Origin: Burkholderiales bacterium
GTDB taxonomy: Bacteria > Pseudomonadota > Gammaproteobacteria > Burkholderiales > Burkholderiaceae_C
DNA: 64,000 nt
Assembly: GCA_028868855.1 (NCBI GenBank)
Contig: JAGWTR010000002.1
Location: 124,001-188,000 of the forward strand
Direction of reading: 5' to 3'
The position numbers and the translations under genes are program-made. Positions within the stretch are counted from its first letter, which is position 1. Each line of letters starts with the position of its first letter. The notes under the pieces were generated by a model. That model saw only the letters and a program-made list of their open reading frames with translations. It did no database searches and was not told where the DNA came from. This document shows, piece by piece, positions 1,945 through 13,897 of the stretch.

Positions 1945-3771
1945 TCAATCGTGCAGACCAAAGGTCATGGCACCTTGTTCTGCGCCGGTCACGGACGCGC
2001 GCATGCTGCCAAACAACTCCCGGCCCATGCCGTGGACATTGCCGGACAGGTCGGCCTGGGCGGGTGACCGTTCGGACCAATCGGAATCAGACACCAGCGC
2101 CAAGAGCGAGCCGCTCACAGCGTCCAGGCGGATCACATCGCCGTCACGCACCTTGGCCAGCGGCCCGCCCGAAAGTGCCTCCGGTGTAACGTGAATGGCC
2201 GCCGGCACCTTGCCCGATGCGCCCGACATGCGCCCATCGGTGACCAGGGCCACTTGAAAGCCCTTGTCCTGCAAATTGGCCAGCGTGGGCGTGAGCGAGT
2301 GCAATTCCGGCATGCCATTGGCACGTGGGCCTTGAAAGCGCACCACCGCCACGAAATCGCGCTCCAGTTCGCCGCGCTGGTAGGCGCCGATCAGCGCCTC
2401 TTGGTGATCAAACACCAAGGCGGGTGCTTCAATGACGCGGTGCTCGGGTTTCACGGCCGAGACCTTGATCACCGCGCGACCCAGATTGCCGTTGAGCACC
2501 TTCAGGCCGCCGTCCGCAGAAAACGGGGTGACCAGCGTGCCCAGCACCGCTTCGTTGCCGCTGTCGGGCGGTACGCTTTGCCAGTGAAGCTGGGCGTTGT
2601 TCAGCAGGGGGGCTTGGGTGTAGGGCTGCAAGCCCTGGCCCATCACCGTCAGTACATCGGGGTGCAGCAGGCCGCCCTCCAGCAACTCGCGGATCAGGAA
2701 GGCCATGCCACCGGCGGCCTGGAATTCATTGACGTCGGCGCTGCCATTGGGGTAAATGCGCGCCAGCAAAGGCACGACCTCGGACAAGGCATCAAAGTCG
2801 TCCCAGTTGATTAGGATGCCGGCGGCGCGAGCGATGGCGACGAGGTGCAGCGTGTGGTTCGTCGAGCCTCCCGTGGCCAGCAGGCCCACGATGCCATTGG
2901 CGATGGCCCGCTCGTCAATCACCTTGCCCACTGGGGTGTGGTGCGCCCCCAGGCGCGTGATGACTGCCACGCGACGTGCCGCTTCGCGGGTCAGTGCCTC
3001 GCGAAGTGGCGTGCCAGGCGGCACGAAGGCAGAGCCAGGTAAATGCAGCCCCATCACCTCCATCAGCATCTGGTTGCTGTTGGCGGTGCCATAAAAGGTG
3101 CAGGTGCCCGCGCTGTGATAGGACTTTTCCTCGGCCTCCAGCAGCGCGGTCTTGTCGATCTCGCCGGCGGCAAAACGCTGGCGCACCTTGGCCTTTTCGT
3201 TGTTGGACAAGCCCGTGCCCATTGGTCCGCCGGGCACGAAGATGGCCGGCAAGTGGCCGAAGCTCAAAGCGCCAATCAACAGGCCCGGTACGATCTTGTC
3301 GCACACGCCCAGGCACAGCACCGCGTCGAACATATTGTGGGACAAGGCCACGGCGGTGGCCATGGCGATCACATCGCGCGAAAACAGCGACAACTCCATG
3401 CCCGGTTGACCTTGGGTCACGCCATCACACATCGCCGGCACGCCGCCGGCAAATTGCGCTGTCGCGCCGACTTCGCGGGCGGCCTCCTTGAGCCATTGCG
3501 GAAAATCGTTCAAGGGCTGGTGTGCCGACAACATGTCGTTGTAGGACGAGACGATGGCGATGTTGGGTTTGCGCTGCTCACGCAACCAGATCTTGTCGCC
3601 GGCCGGGGCGGCGGCGTAGCCGTGCGCGAGATTGGTGCAGCCCAGATGGGCGCGCTCGACCGTGTTGGCGCGGTCCGCGTCGTCGATGCGTTGCAGATAG
3701 CGCGCGCGTGTGGCCAAGCTGCGCTGGCGAATGCGGTCGGTGACGGCTTGAAGTTGGGGATGAATGCTCAC
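1945..3771 (-). CDS. edd: Phosphogluconate dehydratase
   Basis: 608 residues, full length for the IlvD/Edd family. Cysteine-containing segments expected for the iron-sulfur cluster are present: [17 protein letters not shown] and [13 protein letters not shown]. It dehydrates 6-phosphogluconate to KDPG, the first specific Entner-Doudoroff step. [13 protein letters not shown] favours Edd over dihydroxy-acid dehydratase, and the following eda settles it. The ATG at 3771 faces pgl across about 124 bases, so one shared regulatory region probably serves both directions. Confidence 0.96.
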
Positions 3772-3861
3772 GGCGGGATCGACCCTTGTGCGGTTGGTTC
3801 AGCGGCGATGTGGCACAAGCATAAGGCGTTCCGCTGAAAAGTCGCTAAATTCCAAGCACCC

Positions 3862-3880
3862 GCCCTGACCTGTTCAGGGC
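3862..3880. promoter_or_regulatory. Perfect 7-bp inverted repeat between edd and pgl
   Basis: GCCCTGA and TCAGGGC are separated by five bases in the divergent edd/pgl region, ending four bases before the AAGGA ribosome site of pgl. It could be an operator or a hairpin in the pgl leader. It does not resemble the TGTA/TACA-type HexR site known from other proteobacteria. No terminator T-run follows. Confidence 0.4.
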
Positions 3881-3895
3881 ATTCAAGGACTCTTC

Positions 3896-4606
3896 ATGAC
3901 GATTTTTCAATGTCAGGTTCATCAGGCTTGCGACGCAGTCACACTGGGTCGGGATCTGGCCGATTTCGTGGCCGGATGCTTGCGCGATGGGTTGGCGCAA
4001 CGCGATCAAGCCTTGTTGGTGGTGTCCGGCGGCAGTACACCCGTGCCATTTTTCGAAGCCTTGTCCGCCATGGTTCTGGATTGGGCGCGGGTGACAGTGA
4101 CGCTGGCCGACGAGCGCTGGGTGCCGCCCGACCACCTCGACAGCAACGAGCGCCTGGTGCGCCAACACCTGCTGAAAGGCCCGGCGGCCCAGGCCCGCTG
4201 GGTGTCGCTCAAGACCGCTGACGCCACCGCGCAGCAAGGCCAACCCAAGGTGGAATCGGCCTTGGCGGCCCTGCCGTGGCCTGCCGATGTGGTGGTGCTG
4301 GGCATGGGTTCGGATGGCCACACGGCGTCCTTGTTCCCGCACAGTGTGGCTTTGCGGGAGGCCTTGACAGTGCCGGCCGTTGCGCGGTGTCTGGCCGTGG
4401 CGGCACCGGATGTCCCCAATGTGCCCGTGCCGCGCATCAGTCTGAACAAACGAGCCTTGCTGGATGCACGGCAGGTGGTGGTGCACATCACGGGCGCGGC
4501 CAAATGGGCTTTGTTGCAAGAGGCCATCAAACCGGGGGCTGTGGAAGACTTGCCGATTCGCCTGGCCTTGCAAGGCCACCCTTGCCACGTCTATCAAACG
4601 CTGTGA
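3896..4606 (+). CDS. pgl: 6-phosphogluconolactonase
   Basis: 236 residues of the DevB/SOL-type lactonase family. Typical motifs are visible: VSGGSTPVPFF near the N-terminus, DERWVP with SNERL after it, and LGMGSDGHTASLFP. It hydrolyses 6-phosphogluconolactone to 6-phosphogluconate, the substrate of Edd, so it feeds the divergent edd-eda operon. The ATG at 3896 has AAGGA eight bases upstream. No zwf or glk is seen next to it, so the glucose-6-phosphate step is encoded elsewhere. Confidence 0.93.
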   Translation: MTIFQCQVHQACDAVTLGRDLADFVAGCLRDGLAQRDQALLVVSGGSTPVPFFEALSAMVLDWARVTVTLADERWVPPDHLDSNERLVRQHLLKGPAAQARWVSLKTADATAQQGQPKVESALAALPWPADVVVLGMGSDGHTASLFPHSVALREALTVPAVARCLAVAAPDVPNVPVPRISLNKRALLDARQVVVHITGAAKWALLQEAIKPGAVEDLPIRLALQGHPCHVYQTL

Positions 4607-4703
4607 TGGGCGTGCTCGCTCCCCATGCGGGGAAAGTCCCCGTTCCGATGGATGGGCGGCTTTGCGACAATACGACAGCCATTAAATATCAACCCTGCTG
4701 TCT

Positions 4704-5306
4704 ATGAATTTCGATCGCCCACTTCCCTTCGTCAATCCTTACGCATTTGCTTTCTGGGGGGTTTTTGTGTGGGCGTATGCCATGGAAGCCATCAACTACC
4801 GCAAGAAAATCCGCAACGCCGCCGAAGGCGGTGGCGTTGATCGGTATTCCGGCTTGGTTATTTCAGTCGGATCATCCATCTTCCAATGGCTGGCCTTTGG
4901 CATCGCTTTTTACTCAGCCTGGAAGGTCAAGGAAGACTGGCTGCATCCCTTGTTCTGGGTGGGTTTGGCCACGGTGGTGAGCGGCATGCTGCTGAGAATG
5001 CATTGCTGGCGCGTGCTGGGTGAGTTTTTCACGCACACCGTCACCATCGCCGACAACCACCGGGTGGTTGATAACGGGGCGTACCGCTGGATTCGCCACC
5101 CGTCCTATCTGGGCGCCTTGCTGACCTTGATTGGCTTGGGCCTGGCCTTGGGTAATTACGGAAGCATTGCCTTGTTGGTGATTGGATCCATGGCTGTTTA
5201 TATCTATCGGATCGAAACCGAAGAGGCTGCCCTGGAATCCGCGCTGGGCGATTCCTACACTCAATTCAAGAAAACCAGAAAACGCCTGATCCCCTTCGTT
5301 TATTGA
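4704..5306 (+). CDS. Isoprenylcysteine carboxyl methyltransferase-like membrane protein
   Basis: 200 residues with about five hydrophobic segments (roughly 12-29, 51-72, 83-99, 135-152, 153-168). The C-terminal signature of the ICMT/PEMT fold is clear: RHPSYLG at 131-137, then a Glu-rich stretch (ETEEAALE) and a basic end RKRLIPFVY. Family members use S-adenosylmethionine to methylate membrane-bound substrates, though most bacterial members are uncharacterised. The stop lies 15 bases before the BAHD-like gene, so the two are likely co-transcribed. That pairing suggests modification of a lipid or small molecule rather than of a prenylated protein. No strong ribosome site precedes the ATG. Confidence 0.8.
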   Translation: MNFDRPLPFVNPYAFAFWGVFVWAYAMEAINYRKKIRNAAEGGGVDRYSGLVISVGSSIFQWLAFGIAFYSAWKVKEDWLHPLFWVGLATVVSGMLLRMHCWRVLGEFFTHTVTIADNHRVVDNGAYRWIRHPSYLGALLTLIGLGLALGNYGSIALLVIGSMAVYIYRIETEEAALESALGDSYTQFKKTRKRLIPFVY

Positions 5307-5321
5307 GGCGGGAACAGCAGC

Positions 5322-6632
5322 ATGTCACGGCTGAAGTCCAGGCTGGTATCTGGCAAGCGCTTGCATTGCGGCGTCAAGGCTGCGCCACAATATTTGACGG
5401 GCCTGGACATCGTCAACGGCCACATCGGGGTGCCCATTGTGTTGGTGTACCCCAATGGGTTCGACATGGCGGTGTTTGAGCAGTCCCTGCTTGAAACCCT
5501 CAAGAAATACCCGATCATTGCTGGCAGGGTCAAGAAAGATCCACAAGGTCACCAGTACATTGACAGCAATGACGCAGGCATTGATTTTCGAGTGCATCGT
5601 TGCGATGGCGTGTTGCCTGCCTATGGCCACCAACAGCCCTTTGGCGACGGTATTGAAAAGTATTTCAAACGCATCTTTCCCTGGCAGGTGGTGAATAAAG
5701 ACCTGGCCTTGTTTCAAGTTGATGTGTATCAGTTTGACGGCAAAGGCATCATCCTGTGTTGCCATGGCGTGCACACCTTGATGGATGGCACCGCCTACTG
5801 GCAATTCATGCTGGACTGGTCCAAGGCATGCCGGGGCCTTGCCAGCCCAGCACCTGATTTTGGCCGGGATGCCGTGATCAACGCGGGCAAAAACAATACC
5901 GAGCTGGACATGTCAGGCCAGGTGTACGAGCCGACATGGCCCAAAAGAATCGCGCTGTTTTGCCGACTTGGCATGCTCGCCCCGACCTGGAAAAAAGGGG
6001 TCTATCGCATCCCTGCCAGCATGGTGGCGCAGTGGAAACAACAAGCCAAAAACGAACTACCGGACACCGTTGGCGTCAGCACCGTGGAGTTGGTGACGGC
6101 GCATTGCCTCAAAACGCTCTCACCCGTGATGGCCTCGCCCAAAGATCGGAGCGTTGGCATTGTGCTGGACCTGCGTCACAAGCGACGGCTCAAGATCCCA
6201 CGCGATTATTTTGGCAATGCGCTGGGCTACGCTGAAGCCAAGTACACACGCCGCGAATTGGAAAACGAAAGCCTGCCGGTGCTGGCTCAAAAATGCCGGC
6301 CCGATTCAGCGAGCGTGAGCACGGAAAGCCTGTTCAACTTTCTGACCTTGATGGAACGCTTCCGCCAGAAAAAGGCCATCTGGAGGTTGTTCTGGAAAGC
6401 TGCTGGCGAAACTGCAGATGCGGGCATGGTGCTGAATAACTGCATCCACTTTCCCATCTATGAAATCGATTTTGGCCGCGGTGCGCCCAGTTGGTACGAC
6501 CTCTGTGGCGTGGCATTTCGGATGTTGATGGTGGTTCAAACCCCGGACATGGACGGCGGCGTCGACCTGCATTTGACGGCTCAACGCAAAGAATTGCAGG
6601 CCATGGCAAAGAGTTGTCAGCCAATGAGCTGA
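5322..6632 (+). CDS. BAHD/transferase-family acyltransferase (plant-type HxxxD and DFGxG motifs)
   Basis: 436 residues, the normal length for BAHD acyltransferases. Four family hallmarks occur in the right order: HTLMDG (His151 to Asp155, the catalytic HxxxD) near the middle, STVELVTAHCLK at about 253-264, YFGNALGYA at about 297-305, and IDFGRGAP at about 382-389, matching the structural DFGWG motif except Trp to Arg. Such enzymes pass an acyl group from acyl-CoA to a hydroxyl or amine. The family is best known from plants and fungi; bacterial members are less studied. It follows the methyltransferase-like gene by 15 bases and converges on the hydrolase gene. The acyl donor and acceptor cannot be told from the sequence. 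Confidence 0.8.
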   Translation: MSRLKSRLVSGKRLHCGVKAAPQYLTGLDIVNGHIGVPIVLVYPNGFDMAVFEQSLLETLKKYPIIAGRVKKDPQGHQYIDSNDAGIDFRVHRCDGVLPAYGHQQPFGDGIEKYFKRIFPWQVVNKDLALFQVDVYQFDGKGIILCCHGVHTLMDGTAYWQFMLDWSKACRGLASPAPDFGRDAVINAGKNNTELDMSGQVYEPTWPKRIALFCRLGMLAPTWKKGVYRIPASMVAQWKQQAKNELPDTVGVSTVELVTAHCLKTLSPVMASPKDRSVGIVLDLRHKRRLKIPRDYFGNALGYAEAKYTRRELENESLPVLAQKCRPDSASVSTESLFNFLTLMERFRQKKAIWRLFWKAAGETADAGMVLNNCIHFPIYEIDFGRGAPSWYDLCGVAFRMLMVVQTPDMDGGVDLHLTAQRKELQAMAKSCQPMS

Positions 6633-6642
6633 CCGGGTGGCG

Positions 6643-8094
6643 CTATTCGGGAATGTTGGCGAGTTGCGCCCGTGTCAACGCAATGGCATGGTCTGCTGGG
6701 CGCAAGAAACCGGCGGCCAGTGCTGCATCGGCGGCGATTCTGTATTGCTGGACATAGGCCTCGTGTGTGGGGTAGAGCTTGCGCAGATCGACGCTGTCAA
6801 AGGGTTGAGTGCTGCCGCCAGCGACGCAGGAATAAACATCTTTGAACAGGAGTGACCACTTGCTGAAATTGGCATACATGCCATAGCTGGCTGTGGGCAC
6901 GGTCAGTTCTGGCAGGCGCAGGCCGCCTAAGGCGTTGCCGTGTTCGTCGTGTTTGACAAACCCCAGCGCATTGCGCCGCATCCGTTCGGCTTTGGGCGGC
7001 GGCTTGTTTTCGGTGACCCACACGCGCAGCGCGTTCAAGGCAGCGTTGTCCACTTGCTGCAGTGGCAGTGTGTTCACGGGCTTGAAGCAGGATGCCGGTG
7101 CCGGGTTGAGTTCAGCGGCAGGAAGCGGGCGAAGCTCATCTTGCAGGTATTTGCCAAAGTGGGAGGCCCCCGCGACCTCCCAGTAGCGCACCTTGTCGGT
7201 ATCCACCGTCTTGGACAACGGCCAGCTCACGGCCACCTCCATTTCGGTCTGGATTTGCAGCACGGGGGCACTCAGATCGGCCCGGATGCGAGGGTTGAAG
7301 GTCGACCACTGCGTAGAGTTCAGCGGCTTGGCAATCGGTGCCCGCCCATGCAGGAAAAAACCATCAAACAGCTTTTCTCGGGGCTGAATGGCATTGATGT
7401 AGGTGTTGAGAAAAACCGCGGATTCCGAGTAGCCACTGGCCAGCAGCGCTTTGACGGCCGGGGCCGGGCCCAGCAACTCCTGCGCATGCTGGCGAACGGC
7501 CACGCCCGCGTGAGAAAAGATGTCAAACCCCAGGTCATCGTTGTCAATCTGGGCGGCGGCATAGCGTGTGGGGCTACTGCGCTTCAATCCTTCGATGCCT
7601 GCGACTTGGGTGGTCACACCGACCCAAGCGTACCCTTCTCGGATGAGTTCATCCCGCGTCAGTATCCAGCCGGCGTCAATGTCATTGCCCAGGGCGGTGT
7701 TCAGCCACTCCATCACCACGACGCCGTTGAATCTGGCTGGGTTCGCAGGGCGTCGCACCAGCAAACGGGTGGTGTAAGGCTGGCCGATGGATGCGGGCGT
7801 GGCGGTCCATTGGCCATCCTTCTCCCACGGGCCGGTTGGGGTGTAGATGCGGGCCTGACCGCGGAGGAAAAATTCCTCTTCGGTATAGCCCATCGCCGCC
7901 AACGCGGAGGCTCTGGACAGGGCGGGTGTGCCAAGGGGGCGTGCCGCCGATAAACCGGCGGGAAGAAGGCTGCTGCTGGATGGTGGATCAGCCAGCGCGG
8001 CACGAGCGGCGCAGCCCCATACCAGGGCGCTGACGGCGAGGATCAGCGTAGCGCGCAAGATGCCGCACTGAACATCCCCCCCCAAAAAGGACAT
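6643..8094 (-). CDS. Secreted alpha/beta hydrolase domain protein (Abhydrolase_10-like)
   Basis: 483 residues from the ATG at 8094, the start preferred because a signal peptide follows: a hydrophobic core at about 12-29 and a likely cleavage site after ALA near 35. The body carries WLNTALGNDIDAGW, REGYAWVGVTTQ and a GYSES nucleophile elbow followed by FLNTYINA, typical of the large 'alpha/beta hydrolase domain-containing' family. The reaction is unknown; an esterase or amidase acting in the periplasm is the natural guess. It is the last gene of the minus-strand operon headed by the glycosyltransferase, 38 bases after the permease. A T5G8 run sits in the first codons. The frame also continues upstream to 8250 without a plausible start. 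Confidence 0.75.
   Translation of the reverse strand: MSFLGGDVQCGILRATLILAVSALVWGCAARAALADPPSSSSLLPAGLSAARPLGTPALSRASALAAMGYTEEEFFLRGQARIYTPTGPWEKDGQWTATPASIGQPYTTRLLVRRPANPARFNGVVVMEWLNTALGNDIDAGWILTRDELIREGYAWVGVTTQVAGIEGLKRSSPTRYAAAQIDNDDLGFDIFSHAGVAVRQHAQELLGPAPAVKALLASGYSESAVFLNTYINAIQPREKLFDGFFLHGRAPIAKPLNSTQWSTFNPRIRADLSAPVLQIQTEMEVAVSWPLSKTVDTDKVRYWEVAGASHFGKYLQDELRPLPAAELNPAPASCFKPVNTLPLQQVDNAALNALRVWVTENKPPPKAERMRRNALGFVKHDEHGNALGGLRLPELTVPTASYGMYANFSKWSLLFKDVYSCVAGGSTQPFDSVDLRKLYPTHEAYVQQYRIAADAALAAGFLRPADHAIALTRAQLANIPE
8076..8088 (-). repeat. T5G8 homopolymer tract in the first codons of the hydrolase gene
   Basis: Eight C followed by five A on the plus strand, read as TTTTTGGGGGGGG directly after ATG TCC. 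A one-base slip would shift the frame within the signal peptide. It may be a contingency tract or simply a chance run. Confidence 0.7.
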
Positions 8095-8132
8095 CCGTTC
8101 CTTGGTGGCGTCTGGGCGCGGGTGTCCGGTCT

Positions 8133-9302
8133 TCACGCTTCGCGAAGGCAGTCGATGATGTTGAGTTTGGCGGCGCGCCAAGCCGGGATGAAACCGCCCA
8201 GCACGCCCATGATCAAGGAAAACACCATCGTCTGCACGACCACCAGCCACGTCAAGCGGAAGCGGAAGGCGATTTCCGAGAAGGTGCTGAAGTTGACGGT
8301 GGAGATGTCGACCGTCTGCATCACCGATGCGCCCGCCAAACCCACCAGGCCGCCAACCAGGGCCAAGCCCAAGGATTCGCCCAGGAAGGCGATCAGCACG
8401 GCTTCACGCCGAAAGCCCAGTGCCCGCAAGGTGCCGATCTCACCGATTCGGGAGGCCACGGCGGCGAACATGGTGATCATGGCGCCAATGACCGCGCCGA
8501 TCGAAAAAATCACCGACAGGGACAAGCCCAGCAAGCGGATGAACCTTGAAAGGGATTCGGATTGCTCGGCATAGAACTGTTGCTCCGGCTTGATGTCCAG
8601 CAACATCCGGGGGTCGCTGTCAATGACGCTGCGCACCTGTGAGAGCGAGCCAATATTGGCCAGCTTGAACACGACGCTGGAATAGGTGGTCCGATGGTAG
8701 GCCTGCATCACCTGGTCAATGTCAGCCCAGATTTCGGAGTCAAAGCCACTGCGCTCGGCATCGAAGAGGCCCACGACTTGCCAGTCGCGCCCGGCAAAAT
8801 GCAGGGACTCACCCAGCTCTACGTTGGCGAAACCTCGCGCAATGGCTCGGCCCGCGATGATTTCGGAGGTGCCGGGGCGGAACATTCGGCCTTCGACCAG
8901 CTTGATCTGGGGGCGCAGAGCCAGACCCGTCGTCGAGGTGCCGCGCACCGTGACGTTGCTTAGGTCCTCCGAGTTGCGTTTGGCGAGGTTGTTCAGCACT
9001 GCGGCTTCGCGGGACACCATTTTTCCGCCCAGGCTGTCAGTGGCGACGCCCTGGATGTTGTCAATGGCGCTGGCCTGTTCTCGGGAGATGGTCGAGTTGA
9101 TTTCAGCGGTCGAGCCCTTGCGCATCGCCACGACGTTGTCGGGTTGCCCCGTGGCGACCATGGTTTCGTTGATGCCCGCGCTCATCATCAGCACGGTGGC
9201 GAACACGAACACCACCAAGGCCATGCCGCCAGCGGTCAGCACCGTTGTGACGCGGCGCACCCACAGGTTGCGCAAGACGTAGGACAAAGGGATGGCACGC
9301 AT
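8133..9302 (-). CDS. ABC transporter permease, FtsX/MacB type (second of pair)
   Basis: 389 residues from the ATG at 9302. It has one N-terminal membrane helix, a large periplasmic domain of about 220 residues (MacB-PCD-like), then three C-terminal helices. IGEIGTLRALGFRR is the cytoplasmic coupling segment usual in FtsX-fold permeases. The C-terminus resembles MacB/LolE-like mechanotransmission permeases rather than channel-forming importers. It starts 11 bases after the other permease and precedes the hydrolase. With the partner permease, the ATPase and the adaptor it should form one exporter working across the envelope. Confidence 0.88.
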   Translation of the reverse strand: MRAIPLSYVLRNLWVRRVTTVLTAGGMALVVFVFATVLMMSAGINETMVATGQPDNVVAMRKGSTAEINSTISREQASAIDNIQGVATDSLGGKMVSREAAVLNNLAKRNSEDLSNVTVRGTSTTGLALRPQIKLVEGRMFRPGTSEIIAGRAIARGFANVELGESLHFAGRDWQVVGLFDAERSGFDSEIWADIDQVMQAYHRTTYSSVVFKLANIGSLSQVRSVIDSDPRMLLDIKPEQQFYAEQSESLSRFIRLLGLSLSVIFSIGAVIGAMITMFAAVASRIGEIGTLRALGFRREAVLIAFLGESLGLALVGGLVGLAGASVMQTVDISTVNFSTFSEIAFRFRLTWLVVVQTMVFSLIMGVLGGFIPAWRAAKLNIIDCLREA

Positions 9303-9313
9303 CAAACAATTCC

Positions 9314-10474
9314 TCAGGCGACGTGCCGCAGGCCTTGAACGATGTCGATTCGCGACATCTTCCAGGCAGGCCAGGCGGCGGCCACCAGTCCAACACACAG
9401 CGAGGCCAGAACCTGATAAATCAAGGTGTCATGCGACACTTGAAACGTCTTGAACAGCGACCCAGTTTGTTGAGCGAACGCGCTGGCGAAGGGGAAGGTC
9501 AGGGCAATGCCAAGGGCGCCGCCTATGGCTGCGATCATCAGGCTTTCGCCAAACAGGAGCTTGACGACGAAGGCTGGCGAAAAGCCCAGGGCCTTGAGGG
9601 TGGCGTATTCAGCCAGGCGCTCGCGCGCGGTCATCGTCATGGTGTTGGCCATCACGGCCATGATGATCAGGATCACGACGAAGCTCACGGCGCGGATCGC
9701 CAGCAGGATGGTCTGGCTCATCGAGACAAAACCCAACTGGAAGGCTTTTTCGGTTTCCGTTCGCGTCTCGGCTGCGGAGTTCTTGAACAGGGCGTCGATT
9801 TCGTGAGAGATCGATGCGGCACGGCCCGGGTCCTTGATGTTGACAATATAGACGCCGACCTGATTGGCGATGGTGGAGCTGACGTGCTTTCTCAGGCTTT
9901 CCGAGAGCAGCTTCCAGTGCATCAGCATCATGGTCTCGTCGGTCTTGGCGTCGTTGGCGGTGTAGATGCCTCGGATGGTGAAATTCCAGTTGCCGGGGTA
10001 GAGCGTGCCTCTGAGCGGAATGCTGTCGCCAATCTTCCAGCCATATCGTTCCGCCAATTTGCGCCCCACCACCGCGCCCTGGCGATCGGCAAGGAAGGCC
10101 TTCTTTTCGTCCTCGCTGAGGATGTATTCCGGGTACATCGCAAAGTAACTCGGCCCATCGACGGCAAAGCGCGCAAAGAAGTTGCGTCGGTCAATGTAGA
10201 TGCCACCAAACCAGTTGGCCCAGGTGACGCCGGAGACGCCTTCGACGCGTTTGATGCGCTCGGCGTAATACAGCGGCAGCGGGTAGCCCACCGAGATGGA
10301 GCTGCGGGTGATCATGCGCGTGTTCGAGGTGGCATCCACGCCGGCATACCAAGCGTCGACAATGGTGCGCAGCAAGCCAAATGCGCTGATCGCCACCACC
10401 AGCCCGACCATGGTCAGAATGGTGCGCAGGCGATGCCTAAAGGCATTCTTGAGCAATAACTTGAGAATGAACAT
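9314..10474 (-). CDS. ABC transporter permease, FtsX/MacB type (first of pair)
   Basis: 386 residues with the same architecture as its neighbour: an N-terminal helix after LLLKNAFRHRLRTIL, a large periplasmic domain, and C-terminal helices with ARERLAEYATLKALGF. The two differ in their periplasmic domains, which suggests a heterodimer rather than a recent duplication. It lies 16 bases after the ATPase gene. The known precedent is the MacAB/LolCDE superfamily, where paired permeases extract or push substrates at the inner-membrane surface. Confidence 0.88.
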   Translation of the reverse strand: MFILKLLLKNAFRHRLRTILTMVGLVVAISAFGLLRTIVDAWYAGVDATSNTRMITRSSISVGYPLPLYYAERIKRVEGVSGVTWANWFGGIYIDRRNFFARFAVDGPSYFAMYPEYILSEDEKKAFLADRQGAVVGRKLAERYGWKIGDSIPLRGTLYPGNWNFTIRGIYTANDAKTDETMMLMHWKLLSESLRKHVSSTIANQVGVYIVNIKDPGRAASISHEIDALFKNSAAETRTETEKAFQLGFVSMSQTILLAIRAVSFVVILIIMAVMANTMTMTARERLAEYATLKALGFSPAFVVKLLFGESLMIAAIGGALGIALTFPFASAFAQQTGSLFKTFQVSHDTLIYQVLASLCVGLVAAAWPAWKMSRIDIVQGLRHVA

Positions 10475-10490
10475 CTACGGCCAGATCCGG

Positions 10491-11198
10491 TCAGTGACCA
10501 TCTTTCACGTCATCGACCAGGACGCCTTTTTCCAGGTGGATCATCCGGCCCGCGCGTGATGCCGCTTTGGGGTCGTGGGTGACCATGACGATGGTCTTGC
10601 CCAGATCGCGGTGCAGCTCATCCATTAGCAGCAGGACTTCTTCGCCGGTGGCGCGGTCCAGGTCACCGGTGGGTTCGTCGGCCACGATCAAGGTGGGGTC
10701 GGTGACCAGGGCCCGCGCAATGGCGACACGCTGCTGCTGGCCGCCCGACAGTTCATTGGGGTAGTGGTCCATGCGGTCACTGAGCCGGACCATCTCCAGC
10801 GTGGCCTCGACATGGGCCTTGCGTTCGCGGCGGCTCAGATTCGTCAGCAACAAGGGCAGCTCGACGTTTTCAAAGGCCGTCAGTACCGGCATGAGGTTGT
10901 AGAACTGAAAAATGAAGCCGACATTGGCGGCACGCCAGTCCGCCAGCGCGCTTTCGTTGAGCGTGGCAATGTTCACGCCGTCGATTGCGATGGTGCCCGA
11001 GGTCGGTTGGTCGATGCCGGCGATCAGGTTGAGCAGCGTGCTTTTGCCCGATCCGCTGGGCCCCATCAGTGAGACAAACTCGGCACGCCGTACTTCAAGA
11101 TTGATGTCGGTGAGCACCTGGATGACCTGGTCACCGCGGCGGTATGTTTTGGTGAGGTGGTCAATGCGGATCAGCGCGTCCGCTACCGTTGCTTTCAT
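10491..11198 (-). CDS. ABC transporter ATP-binding protein (MacB/LolD type)
   Basis: 235 residues from the ATG at 11198. The Walker A motif GPSGSGKST (about 46-54), the signature [15 protein letters not shown], Walker [13 protein letters not shown] and the His switch VTHDP are all intact. LSGGQQQR followed by DEPTGDLD is typical of the LolD/MacB/FtsE subfamily that powers FtsX-type permeases. A TTG at 11216 overlaps the adaptor stop and is a less likely start. Translation is probably coupled to the adaptor gene. Confidence 0.92.
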
Positions 11199-11212
11199 GG
11201 TGATTTCGCCGC

Positions 11213-12499
11213 TCAAGAAGTGGCGGTGCTGACATGCGAGCCGGCCTTCAGGCGAGCCGGCGGGTCCATCACCAATTTGTCTCCGGATTTGACGTTACCG
11301 GTGATTTCTCGCAAATCGCCCAGCTTGCGGCCAGGCTTGACGGTGACTTCCTCAACCACATCGTGGCCATCCACCGCCGTGATCTTGTAGACCAGGCTTT
11401 GGCTGTCGCGCGTGACGATGGCATTACCGGCCACCGCCAGCACGGCTTGCTGGTCGTCCGCGGTGATCGCGTGCGACAGGAAGCTGACCTTGGCGCTCAT
11501 CTCGGGCAGGATGCGCGGGTCAAGTTCATCAAAGCGGATTTTGGTCATGACTGTGGCCTTGGCGCGGTCCACCGTTGGCACGATGCCGGACACGTGACCG
11601 CGAAAGCGCATGGTGGGCAAGGCATCCAGCGTGATCTCGACGGGCTGGTTGGTCTGGGTCTTGGACAGATTGCCTTCGGACACGTCGGCCTCCACCTCCA
11701 GGGTGGTCATGTCGGCCATCGTGACCACAGCACCTTGCGAGCCGGCGGCGCTGGAGAAGGGGGTGATGATGTCGCCCACATTGGCGTTCTTGACCAGCAC
11801 CACACCATCAAACGGCGCGCGAATTTCGGTGTATTGCTGGTTGACCTTCTGCGCCTTGTACTGAGCCTGAGCCTGGGCCAGGCCGGCATCGGCACCGGCC
11901 GCAGCGGCAAATGCCGCCTTGTTCTTGGCCAGGGCCGCTTCGACCAGTTGAGGCGAGACAAAGCCTTGTGCTTCGAGGCCTCGGGTGCGAGCCAGTTCGG
12001 CGCGAGCGTTGATGAGTTGCACCTGGGCCTGCTTGATGTTGGCTTCGGCCTGGTGCACGGCTGCTTCGGCACCCAGCAAGGCGGCGTTGATGTCGCTGTC
12101 ATCGAGTCGGGCGATGAGCTCGTCTTTCTTGACGTGCGAGCCCTCGCGGACATTCAATTCGAGCAGTCGGCCCGAACCCTTGGACGCCACCGCTGCGCGG
12201 CGTTGGGCCACCACGTAGCCCGAGGCCGTCAATTGAACGTATTGCTGTGAGGCCGTGCTGAACACCACCGAGGTGGTCTTGACCTCTAGGGTGCGGGGAT
12301 AGAAATAATAAGCGCCCGTCCCGACAGCGACCCCAACGGCCAGGATCCAGGGCAGCACGCTTGACTTCTTTTTGACGGGGGCCTGGGCACCTCGATCAAT
12401 CTTGAGTTGAGACAAGGCCGAGGGAGCGGTTACATCATTCATGGCGGTACTGGAAAGAGGTGCCCAATTGTGCATGGAGGCACGGCCCTTATTGATCAT
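11213..12499 (-). CDS. Periplasmic adaptor subunit (HlyD/MacA-type membrane fusion protein)
   Basis: 428 residues with one membrane anchor at about 49-66 (SSVLPWILAVGVAVGTGAYY). A biotinyl-lipoyl-like half follows (GSGRLLELNVREGSHVKKDE), then a long coiled coil rich in A, Q and E (roughly residues 130-205) and the second lipoyl half with the beta barrel. It would link the ABC permease pair to an outer-membrane channel; no TolC-like gene is in the window. The ATG at 12499 is supported by GGAAGG seven bases upstream, although that site lies inside a hairpin. An ATG at 12442 is possible but has no ribosome site. Confidence 0.88.
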   Translation of the reverse strand: MINKGRASMHNWAPLSSTAMNDVTAPSALSQLKIDRGAQAPVKKKSSVLPWILAVGVAVGTGAYYFYPRTLEVKTTSVVFSTASQQYVQLTASGYVVAQRRAAVASKGSGRLLELNVREGSHVKKDELIARLDDSDINAALLGAEAAVHQAEANIKQAQVQLINARAELARTRGLEAQGFVSPQLVEAALAKNKAAFAAAAGADAGLAQAQAQYKAQKVNQQYTEIRAPFDGVVLVKNANVGDIITPFSSAAGSQGAVVTMADMTTLEVEADVSEGNLSKTQTNQPVEITLDALPTMRFRGHVSGIVPTVDRAKATVMTKIRFDELDPRILPEMSAKVSFLSHAITADDQQAVLAVAGNAIVTRDSQSLVYKITAVDGHDVVEEVTVKPGRKLGDLREITGNVKSGDKLVMDPPARLKAGSHVSTATS

Positions 12500-12507
12500 C
12501 GTTAGGC

Positions 12508-12528
12508 CTTCCCTTGAATAAAGGGAAG
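12508..12528 (-). promoter_or_regulatory. Hairpin covering the ribosome site of the adaptor gene
   Basis: On the coding strand CTTCCCTT and AAGGGAAG form a perfect 8-bp stem with a five-base loop. The right arm carries the AAGGGAAGG that serves as ribosome binding site for the ATG at 12499. There is no U-run, so it is not an intrinsic terminator. It could limit adaptor translation or act as an RNA processing site between the glycosyltransferase and exporter genes. Confidence 0.5.
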
Positions 12529-12568
12529 AGCGGGGTTTAACGGATGGACAGTGGAATTGGCTGGTGTA

Positions 12569-13897
12569 TTAGGCGGGTAGGAGCTTGCGCAACTCTTCGT
12601 CCAGCAGGCGTGCCGCTGTCACCGTGCCGCAGGTCTGGTTGATCTCGGTGCGCAGCTTGCGTGCGTTGTCGTGCAAGGTGGTGTCATTGATCAAACGCTC
12701 GAGCGTGCTCTCGAACGTGCGGCTTTGCAGCTTGGACGGCGGCACGGTGAGCGCGGCCCCCATGCGAACAATGCGGGCGGTGTTGTCGGGCTGGTCCATG
12801 CCGAAAGGAATCAGCAGCTGGGGAATGCCGGCCTTCATCGCCTGCGAGGTGATGCCACACCCGGCGGTGTTCACCACGGCTTTGCAGCGCGGAAAAAGTT
12901 CGCCCACCGAGGCCCACGCCACCGACATTTGTGTGGGGGGCAGTTGGCCCTGCAAGGCCTTGTCGCCCGCCAGAAAAATGGCGCGCACGCCCAGCTTCGA
13001 GCACAGTTTCGACCACCCCGGATAGAGGCGATCGGCGTGGAACCACAGCGAAGACCCCAGGCTGAACACGATGGGGGGATCGCCCTTGTCCAGAAACTCT
13101 TTCAAGTCGTCAGACAGCGGCGCCGCGTTGCCGTCGAAGAAGTTGAAGCCGGCGAAGTCGACGTGGCCGGGCAGGTCGGTCGGCATCGGGGTGCGCATCA
13201 TTTGCGGGACGAACAAGGCGATGCTGCCCAATGGCGAGATGGTGCCTTCGATCAGCGGATTGATCGCCTTGTCAAAAAGGCCATATTCCTTGGCCTTGAC
13301 GTCCAGCGGGCCAATGAAGGCGCGGCCGGAGTCGCGCATGATTTTGAACAGGCGCCGATACCGTTCTTCGCCGATCCAGCCGGGCAGCTTGCGCATCGAC
13401 AGGAAGTTGGTCATGACCGGAGGGTCCTGGGCCGACTGCAAACTCAGGGTGATGGCCTGCACGATCACCGATTTCCAGGGCATTTTTCGCTTGAACGCCA
13501 CCATGTGCGCCCAGGGCGTGGTGGGTGGGGCCACCAGCAAGTCCGCGCCTTCGCAGGCGGCGTCCAGTTCCGAGCAGATCTGATCCATGTAGGGATAGAT
13601 CATTTTCTCCATCATGAACTTGCCGCCCACGACCGGCTGGAAGACGCGCCGCAAGCGCTCGCCCTGATCCATGCCCAGGTCCTTGTCCAGCTGGCTGTGG
13701 TGCGGCGCGGCGGGCGCAAACTCGATGCCATGCTCACGCGCCAGCGGCTCGAAGTAGCTGGACGTGGCCAGGACAGGATGGTGGCCCAAGGCCTTCAAGG
13801 CCTTGCCCAGGCCGATGAACGGAACGATGTCGCCGTGCGTGCCAAAGGTGGTCAAAACAATGCGTTTTGACGCTGACGGGGAGTGGGAGTACTTCAT
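12569..13897 (-). CDS. GT1-family glycosyltransferase (UGT/sterol-glucosyltransferase or RhlB-like)
   Basis: 442 residues of the GT-B fold. The N-terminal acceptor domain begins KRIVLTTFGTHGDIVPFIGL, and the C-terminal donor domain has FSLGSSLWFHADRLYPGW and the UGT-like NTAGCG...QLLIPFGMDQPDN. Related enzymes glycosylate lipids (RhlB on hydroxyalkanoyl-alkanoates, sterol glucosyltransferases) or antibiotics. No signal peptide or membrane helix is evident, so it is cytoplasmic or peripheral. It heads the minus-strand operon that continues into the ABC exporter and the secreted hydrolase, 69 bases before the adaptor start. The sugar donor and acceptor are unknown. Confidence 0.85.
   Translation of the reverse strand: MKYSHSPSASKRIVLTTFGTHGDIVPFIGLGKALKALGHHPVLATSSYFEPLAREHGIEFAPAAPHHSQLDKDLGMDQGERLRRVFQPVVGGKFMMEKMIYPYMDQICSELDAACEGADLLVAPPTTPWAHMVAFKRKMPWKSVIVQAITLSLQSAQDPPVMTNFLSMRKLPGWIGEERYRRLFKIMRDSGRAFIGPLDVKAKEYGLFDKAINPLIEGTISPLGSIALFVPQMMRTPMPTDLPGHVDFAGFNFFDGNAAPLSDDLKEFLDKGDPPIVFSLGSSLWFHADRLYPGWSKLCSKLGVRAIFLAGDKALQGQLPPTQMSVAWASVGELFPRCKAVVNTAGCGITSQAMKAGIPQLLIPFGMDQPDNTARIVRMGAALTVPPSKLQSRTFESTLERLINDTTLHDNARKLRTEINQTCGTVTAARLLDEELRKLLPA

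Follow-up and report, generated by a model that had tools for sequence, protein, structure and literature searches.

Why should a BAHD acyltransferase, a membrane methyltransferase, a glycosyltransferase, a split exporter and an alpha/beta hydrolase stand side by side in a bacterial genome, and do such genes belong together at all? The question is raised by an eight-gene locus in a 64,000-nt stretch of a Burkholderiales genome (assembly GCA_028868855.1, contig JAGWTR010000002.1, positions 124,001 to 188,000), hereafter the window, within which all coordinates are counted. We find that seven of the eight genes, all but the glycosyltransferase, are conserved as a unit within a single GTDB genus, whose genomes mostly carry the title Aquabacterium. 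The eight proteins were scored against Pfam curated cut-offs and NCBIfam cut-offs. All eight open reading frames named in an earlier sequence-only reading are present, and all eight proteins score above a curated Pfam cut-off, which confirms the families that it had assigned:

4704..5306, + strand: ICMT/PEMT-like membrane methyltransferase, 200 amino acids (aa) (PF04140, 68.7 bits; PF04191, 52.7 bits)
5322..6632, + strand: BAHD acyltransferase, 436 aa (PF02458, 114.9 bits against a cut-off of 22.7; HTLMD and DFGRG motifs)
6643..8094, − strand: Abhydrolase_10 alpha/beta hydrolase, 483 aa (PF20091, 444.3 bits against a cut-off of 23)
8133..9302, − strand: FtsX/MacB-type permease 2 (FtsX2), 389 aa (MacB_PCD and FtsX)
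9314..10474, − strand: FtsX/MacB-type permease 1 (FtsX1), 386 aa (MacB_PCD and FtsX)
10491..11198, − strand: LolD/MacB-type ATP-binding cassette (ABC) ATPase, 235 aa (ABC_tran, 126.8 bits)
11213..12442, − strand: HlyD/MacA-type periplasmic adaptor, 409 aa (HlyD_D23, 74.0 bits; start matched to homologues)
12569..13897, − strand: family 1 glycosyltransferase (GT1), EryCIII/sterol-glucosyltransferase-like (EryCIII-like_C, PF06722, 64.1 bits against a cut-off of 31.7)

The methyltransferase and BAHD genes converge on a minus-strand run of GT1, HlyD, ABC, FtsX1, FtsX2 and hydrolase genes, and five of the seven intergenic gaps measure 10-16 bp: 15 bp between methyltransferase and BAHD, 10 bp between the convergent stop codons of BAHD and hydrolase, 11 bp between the two permeases, 16 bp between FtsX1 and the ATPase, and 14 bp between the ATPase and the adaptor. 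With the hydrolase (8094) and HlyD (12442) starts picked to fit homologues, the hydrolase–FtsX2 gap is 38 bp and the HlyD–GT1 gap 126 bp.

To follow the locus beyond the window, we used 42 genomes of the window's GTDB genus and examined BAHD neighborhoods over as much as 20 kb. The BAHD gene is present in 25 of the 42. In 20 of these, termed locus-type, it lies beside the exporter or the methyltransferase; the remaining five (G589, G591, G595, G624 and G596) were set aside. Strikingly uniform is the arrangement in 18 of the 20 locus-type genomes, where BAHD is convergent with and adjacent to a hydrolase–FtsX2–FtsX1–ABC–HlyD block that is complete in 15 and cut by contig ends in three (G593, G599 and G605). 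Five of these 18 genomes carry a tandem BAHD pair, and in the block genomes the BAHD gene can run into the 3′ end of the hydrolase gene, with an overlap of at most 47 bp. The methyltransferase is found in 19 of 20 locus-type genomes versus 0 of 22 others (Fisher P = 4.5e-11, ancestry ignored). It lies within the BAHD stretch in 14 of the 18 block genomes, on the same contig at a distance of ∼18 kb in G159 and ∼15 kb in G606, and on another contig in G605; the search of the genus genomes did not find it in G599.

The sequence-only reading had treated all eight genes as one locus and proposed a search for their joint conservation in related genomes. All eight are contiguous in only two of the 42, the window's own and G626. 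What stands of the proposed linkage is the association of methyltransferase and BAHD with exporter and hydrolase across the genus, while GT1, with orthologues in 4 of 42 genomes, is accessory rather than core. That reading had also allowed that the genes would be mere unrelated neighbors should the methyltransferase–BAHD pair and the GT1–exporter operon seldom occur together elsewhere. Most loci indeed lack GT1, but the 18 conserved blocks and the distribution of the methyltransferase lead us to reject this explanation for methyltransferase, BAHD, hydrolase and exporter, and GT1 itself is the first gene of the exporter run in all four genomes that have it; for the eight genes as a set we regard chance adjacency as very improbable.

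The unit contains an enzyme that is unusual for a bacterium. Two sources (PMC10585174, PMC9950517) present the BAHD acyltransferases as a family of plant enzymes. In our alignment the HxxxD catalytic residues, H151 and D155, show no variation among the 31 rows. The second motif occurs in all 31 as [DN][FLM]GxG; the window protein has DFGRG, tryptophan appears in 0 of 31 rows, and the strict DFGWG form is therefore absent. A review (PMC10585174) describes DFGWG as incompletely conserved. An AlphaFold2 model of the window protein (mean predicted local distance difference test score, pLDDT, 90.8) predicts the two-domain BAHD fold. Its top Foldseek match is the plant hydroxycinnamoyl transferase (HCT) 5kjv (E 6.2e-31; template-modeling [TM] scores 0.80/0.82), it aligns with 4g0b_A at TM 0.82/0.85, and a sequence profile likewise matches plant HCT best (E 2.1e-31). 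In a search of predicted viral folds, the model had one match below E 0.001, the predicted structure V5LQH1 (E 3.6e-11; TM 0.48/0.60).

The likeness to the plant HCT group extends to the HxxxD and DFGxG motifs and the predicted fold. In contrast, identity in the structural alignment is only ∼20%, and the bacterial enzyme is encoded next to a dedicated exporter. Moreover, the arginine handle, which in HCT binds the shikimate carboxylate according to PMC6203249, is unconserved: the corresponding position holds Gln in 11 rows, His in nine (including the window protein), Asn in four, Leu in four, Arg in two and Met in one. Because this position is rarely Arg, an HCT-like acceptor cannot be assumed, nor can the acceptor be read from the sequence. 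Motifs and predicted fold thus identify the window protein as a BAHD enzyme, yet not as an HCT.

In the phylum sample, PF02458 was found in 1 of 398 genomes, the window's own, and in 0 of 14 control genomes. The family sample of 200 genomes yielded BAHD in two, both from the window's genus, and the order sample of 399 likewise in two, the window's own and a 26% relative in G575. A contig scan based on the BAHD alignment returned 22 loci, 17 titled Aquabacterium, two from one "Leptothrix" metagenome-assembled genome (MAG) and three from "Burkholderiales" MAGs; its patterns were tuned to the genus, and absence elsewhere is not provable from it. BAHD is thus nearly absent from the sampled Pseudomonadota, yet it has been kept, duplicated and diversified in one genus, where one lineage of an unusual bacterial BAHD group is tied to its own exporter. 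The locus offers a handle on what BAHD enzymes do in bacteria. Among the titles listed by searches of the open-licence literature, none concerned a bacterial BAHD, and those listed for Aquabacterium included nothing relevant.

BAHD genes of the genus that lack the exporter provide a hint of the chemistry. Those of G589, G591, G595 and G624 have a ketoacyl synthase III (KASIII)-cluster gene a few genes away at most, and the distant BAHDs of G623, G618, G602 and G596 adjoin genes of the KASIII, ligase, short-chain dehydrogenase/reductase (SDR) and zinc alcohol dehydrogenase (Zn-ADH) clusters, from each of which one member was scanned by Pfam. These neighbors hint at fatty-acyl chemistry. In L104, L105, L106 and L108 (∼3400-10700), 31-37% BAHD paralogues stand by KASIII, SDR, Zn-ADH and acyl-CoA-ligase genes; these regions possibly represent a separate biosynthetic cluster.

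How would a BAHD product leave the cell? The exporter had been likened to MacAB-type machines. The resemblance holds for the MacB-type periplasmic domains and, less clearly, for the MacA-like adaptor, which passes RND_mfp (166 bits, cut-off 94.9) but scores 103.1 against a cut-off of 342 for the MacA equivalog. It fails for the pump, which is split into a separate LolD-like ATPase and two FtsX subunits rather than a fused MacB; a TolC-type gene is likewise missing among the eight. In its LolD-like ATPase and paired FtsX permeases the pump resembles LolCDE, but it has a HlyD adaptor, and both the best NCBIfam match of the ATPase, LolD (247.7 bits, cut-off 307.75), and the lolCE scores of the permeases (34.1 and 41.0 bits, cut-off 362.45) fall below threshold. 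The permease has matches in 37 of the 42 genomes of the genus at E 1e-60 and in 34 of 200 family genomes at E 1e-30. We built a tree of 51 permeases from the fetched loci, in which 16 of the 18 BAHD-linked copies were usable, two being truncated. All 16, the window's FtsX1 among them, belong to a group of 19 rows found in this genus alone, which also takes in the copies of G597, G616 and G609. The second exporter copy of the genus clusters with the remaining family members (support 95/94). The BAHD-linked exporter is likeliest a copy of a family-wide pump that became specialized in the genus.

A different view of the pump is that exporter and hydrolase form a lipoprotein or envelope-stress machine, with BAHD and methyltransferase as long-standing neighbors. 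The ATPase is nearest LolD, the family-wide paralogue stands without BAHD, an exporter of the BAHD-linked group occurs in G609 (a 75%-complete genome) where no BAHD was found, and exporter and BAHD lie apart in G597 and G616. Still, methyltransferase, BAHD, hydrolase and exporter co-occur, and in 18 genomes BAHD stays next to the hydrolase, with 3′ ends that can overlap; we consider such a machine unlikely.

Two second-copy or insertion cases were also seen. At L111:9435-18439, the second exporter copy of G159, a phospholipid-type cluster of seven genes, with a CDP-alcohol phosphatidyltransferase, an acyltransferase, a CTP transferase and a fusion of hydrolase and methyltransferase among them, separates the two FtsX permeases; we dropped these genes as a clue to the substrate, as they are a single case among the stretches with this copy. 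At L110:2603-9605 (G033), the HlyD and FtsX1 genes of the exporter are parted by genes whose first residues look like those of a restriction-modification set.

Is the product glycosylated? The four GT1 orthologues (68-71% in the three genomes other than the window's) all occur with the core. The pattern-based contig scan missed GT1 even though the genome search gave three orthologues, a limit of the pattern search. The window GT1 resembles EryCIII-like, sterol glucosyltransferase and rhamnosyltransferase GT1s in its EryCIII-like C-terminal domain and in the solved structures closest to it, its best PDB match being a sterol 3-beta-glucosyltransferase (E 1.4e-16), but the remaining GT1 matches of the family sample are only 24-35% identical to it. 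In 11 other core genomes the locus holds a ∼600-aa membrane protein whose low-confidence model has GT-C-like structural matches, a family (L138:6760-8574, − strand; alignment A4) encoded antisense between methyltransferase and BAHD in several Aquabacterium genomes. It has no Pfam match, one sub-cut-off NCBIfam match and one PDB match at E 1.1. GT1 and the GT-C-like protein occur together in 0 of the 20 locus-type genomes, and GT1 is perhaps an interchangeable part of the locus. With its natural variants (tandem BAHD, GT1, GT-C-like protein or neither), the locus offers a defined starting point in the search for a new acylated metabolite or lipid. In another genus (G053, L113:5166-10814), a gene for a GT1 relative (29%) converges on genes for relatives of these permeases (58-59%), and the GT1-exporter neighborhood may have arisen more than once.

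The glycosyltransferase also bears on whether the locus serves detoxification, with BAHD and GT1 inactivating xenobiotics that the pump expels. The top NCBIfam matches of GT1 include macrolide-type glycosyltransferases, though all lie below cut-off, and the adaptor is MacA-like. However, GT1 is present in few genomes while methyltransferase and hydrolase are kept, the window locus is flanked on one side by the Entner-Doudoroff pathway genes eda, edd and pgl, and no BAHD match was found among 72,556 plasmid records; there is little probability in this explanation.

The two remaining enzymes would act at the membrane and beyond it. The methyltransferase exceeds the Pfam ICMT cut-off, which supports the ICMT-like label given earlier, but against the NCBIfam ICMT equivalog it reaches 75.8 bits, far below the cut-off of 160, and the narrower assignment falls away. 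In the hydrolase, the G-Y-S and second S of the GYSxS motif are invariant in 15 of 15 rows, the serine being Ser222 in A3 numbering and Ser223 from the ATG at 8094. A hydrophobic segment at residues 8-26 suggests that the protein is probably secreted. By sequence it has no convincing PDB relative (one match, E 0.43, in one search and none in another), and a search of the open-licence literature by Abhydrolase_10 names yielded no paper.

Collectively, these data raise the possibility, which we judge evenly balanced, of a genus-specific biosynthesis-export system for an acylated, methylated and often glycosylated lipid or metabolite that is finished outside by the hydrolase. In the cytoplasm, BAHD would transfer an acyl group from acyl-CoA to a hydrophobic acceptor, at a hydroxyl (or amine) group, and the ICMT/PEMT-like membrane enzyme would methylate the same product at a carboxylate or head group. 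A sugar might be added by cytoplasmic GT1, in the window genome and three others, or alternatively, in the 11 genomes that encode it, by the GT-C-like enzyme acting on the outer side of the membrane. The split ABC/FtsX pump and HlyD adaptor would then move the product out of the inner membrane, and the secreted hydrolase could act on it in the periplasm as an esterase or transacylase. The lipid nature and methylation of the product, and its trimming or recycling by the hydrolase, for which the sequence-only reading allowed, likewise stand as inferences.

The data show the gene identities, the motifs and predicted fold of BAHD, the linkage and co-occurrence of the genes and a distinct exporter paralogue; the substrate, its lipid nature and each chemical step, including acyl-CoA-dependent transfer, are ones that we infer. 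Several points weigh against this proposal. In G597 and G616, BAHD–methyltransferase, GT1–exporter and hydrolase are held at three separate places; BAHD–methyltransferase there adjoins a thiolase, and in G616 the GT1–exporter is ∼16 kb away. No outer-membrane channel was seen at the locus. The genus-only permease group, with a support of 88/97 (ultrafast bootstrap 88), carries no star. On the permease tree BAHD linkage requires two changes, a single change being found in 0 of 200 bootstrap trees. In 23 exporter stretches from other genera (L113-L135, some on short contigs) no BAHD or hydrolase label was found, and because of this the ancestral pump would have had another or a broader job. The GT-C-like model is of low confidence (mean pLDDT 55.3), GT1 and the GT-C-like protein are both missing from five core genomes, and the mutual exclusion of the two is weak (Fisher P = 0.026 within the 20 locus-type genomes and 0.28 in all 42, ancestry ignored).

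The same unit could instead make and export a soluble small molecule, an ester or amide of aromatic or polyol type that is in some cases glycosylated, as with plant BAHD enzymes, and that serves as antibiotic, signal or metallophore. The nearest solved BAHD relatives are plant hydroxycinnamoyl transferases, GT1 resembles macrolide and sterol glycosyltransferases, and the adaptor is MacA-like. With Arg so scarce at the handle position an HCT-like acceptor is not to be presumed, however, and the membrane methyltransferase and GT-C-like alternative favor one that is membrane-bound. We regard a soluble product as rather unlikely.

For the acylation and export that we favor, an analogous layout exists in the mycobacterial pathway of the di- and polyacyltrehaloses (DAT/PAT). 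The window has ABC/FtsX/HlyD proteins in place of MmpL, BAHD in place of PapA and Abhydrolase_10 in place of Chp, and the Pfam matches of the eight proteins at E 0.01 name no PapA, MmpL or Chp. PapA3 acts in the DAT/PAT pathway, and Chp2 is a protein of the alpha/beta-hydrolase fold. According to PMC4183827, DAT is made in the cytosol, Chp2 transesterifies on the periplasmic face, and transport depends on MmpL10. The two systems would share a topological split into cytosolic acylation, export and periplasmic finishing by a hydrolase-fold enzyme, a likeness of analogy and not of homology or membership. A bolder extension, which we consider doubtful, is that the locus makes a new, BAHD-derived class of envelope glycolipid, with a switch between GT1 and GT-C and transacylase finishing after genus-specific export, as an independently evolved Gram-negative counterpart of the acyltrehalose pathway.

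As to origin, the methyltransferase–BAHD pair has a GC content of 0.54-0.55 compared with 0.63 for the other window genes. Recent horizontal transfer of BAHD was not upheld: of 15 other loci, all copies counted, 10 have a BAHD GC that departs from the local mean by no more than 0.03, and in five it is 0.04-0.06 below. Methyltransferase GC is lower in several loci, and that gene may have been transferred recently. A plasmid origin was rejected on the plasmid search above, in which GT1 relatives below 60% identity appeared in 110 records.

Promoter-like and terminator-like sites at the locus were about as frequent as in shuffled sequence (3 versus a mean of 2.6, and 13 versus 10.4). A crude hydropathy scan, which gave no topology and found 0 segments in HlyD and only two in the methyltransferase, marked four in either permease and one near the N terminus of the hydrolase, whereas BAHD and GT1 had 0. 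In several genomes (L089-L092, L144, L145 and L149), the locus lies beyond genes that from their residues look like a RuBisCO (cbb) cluster.

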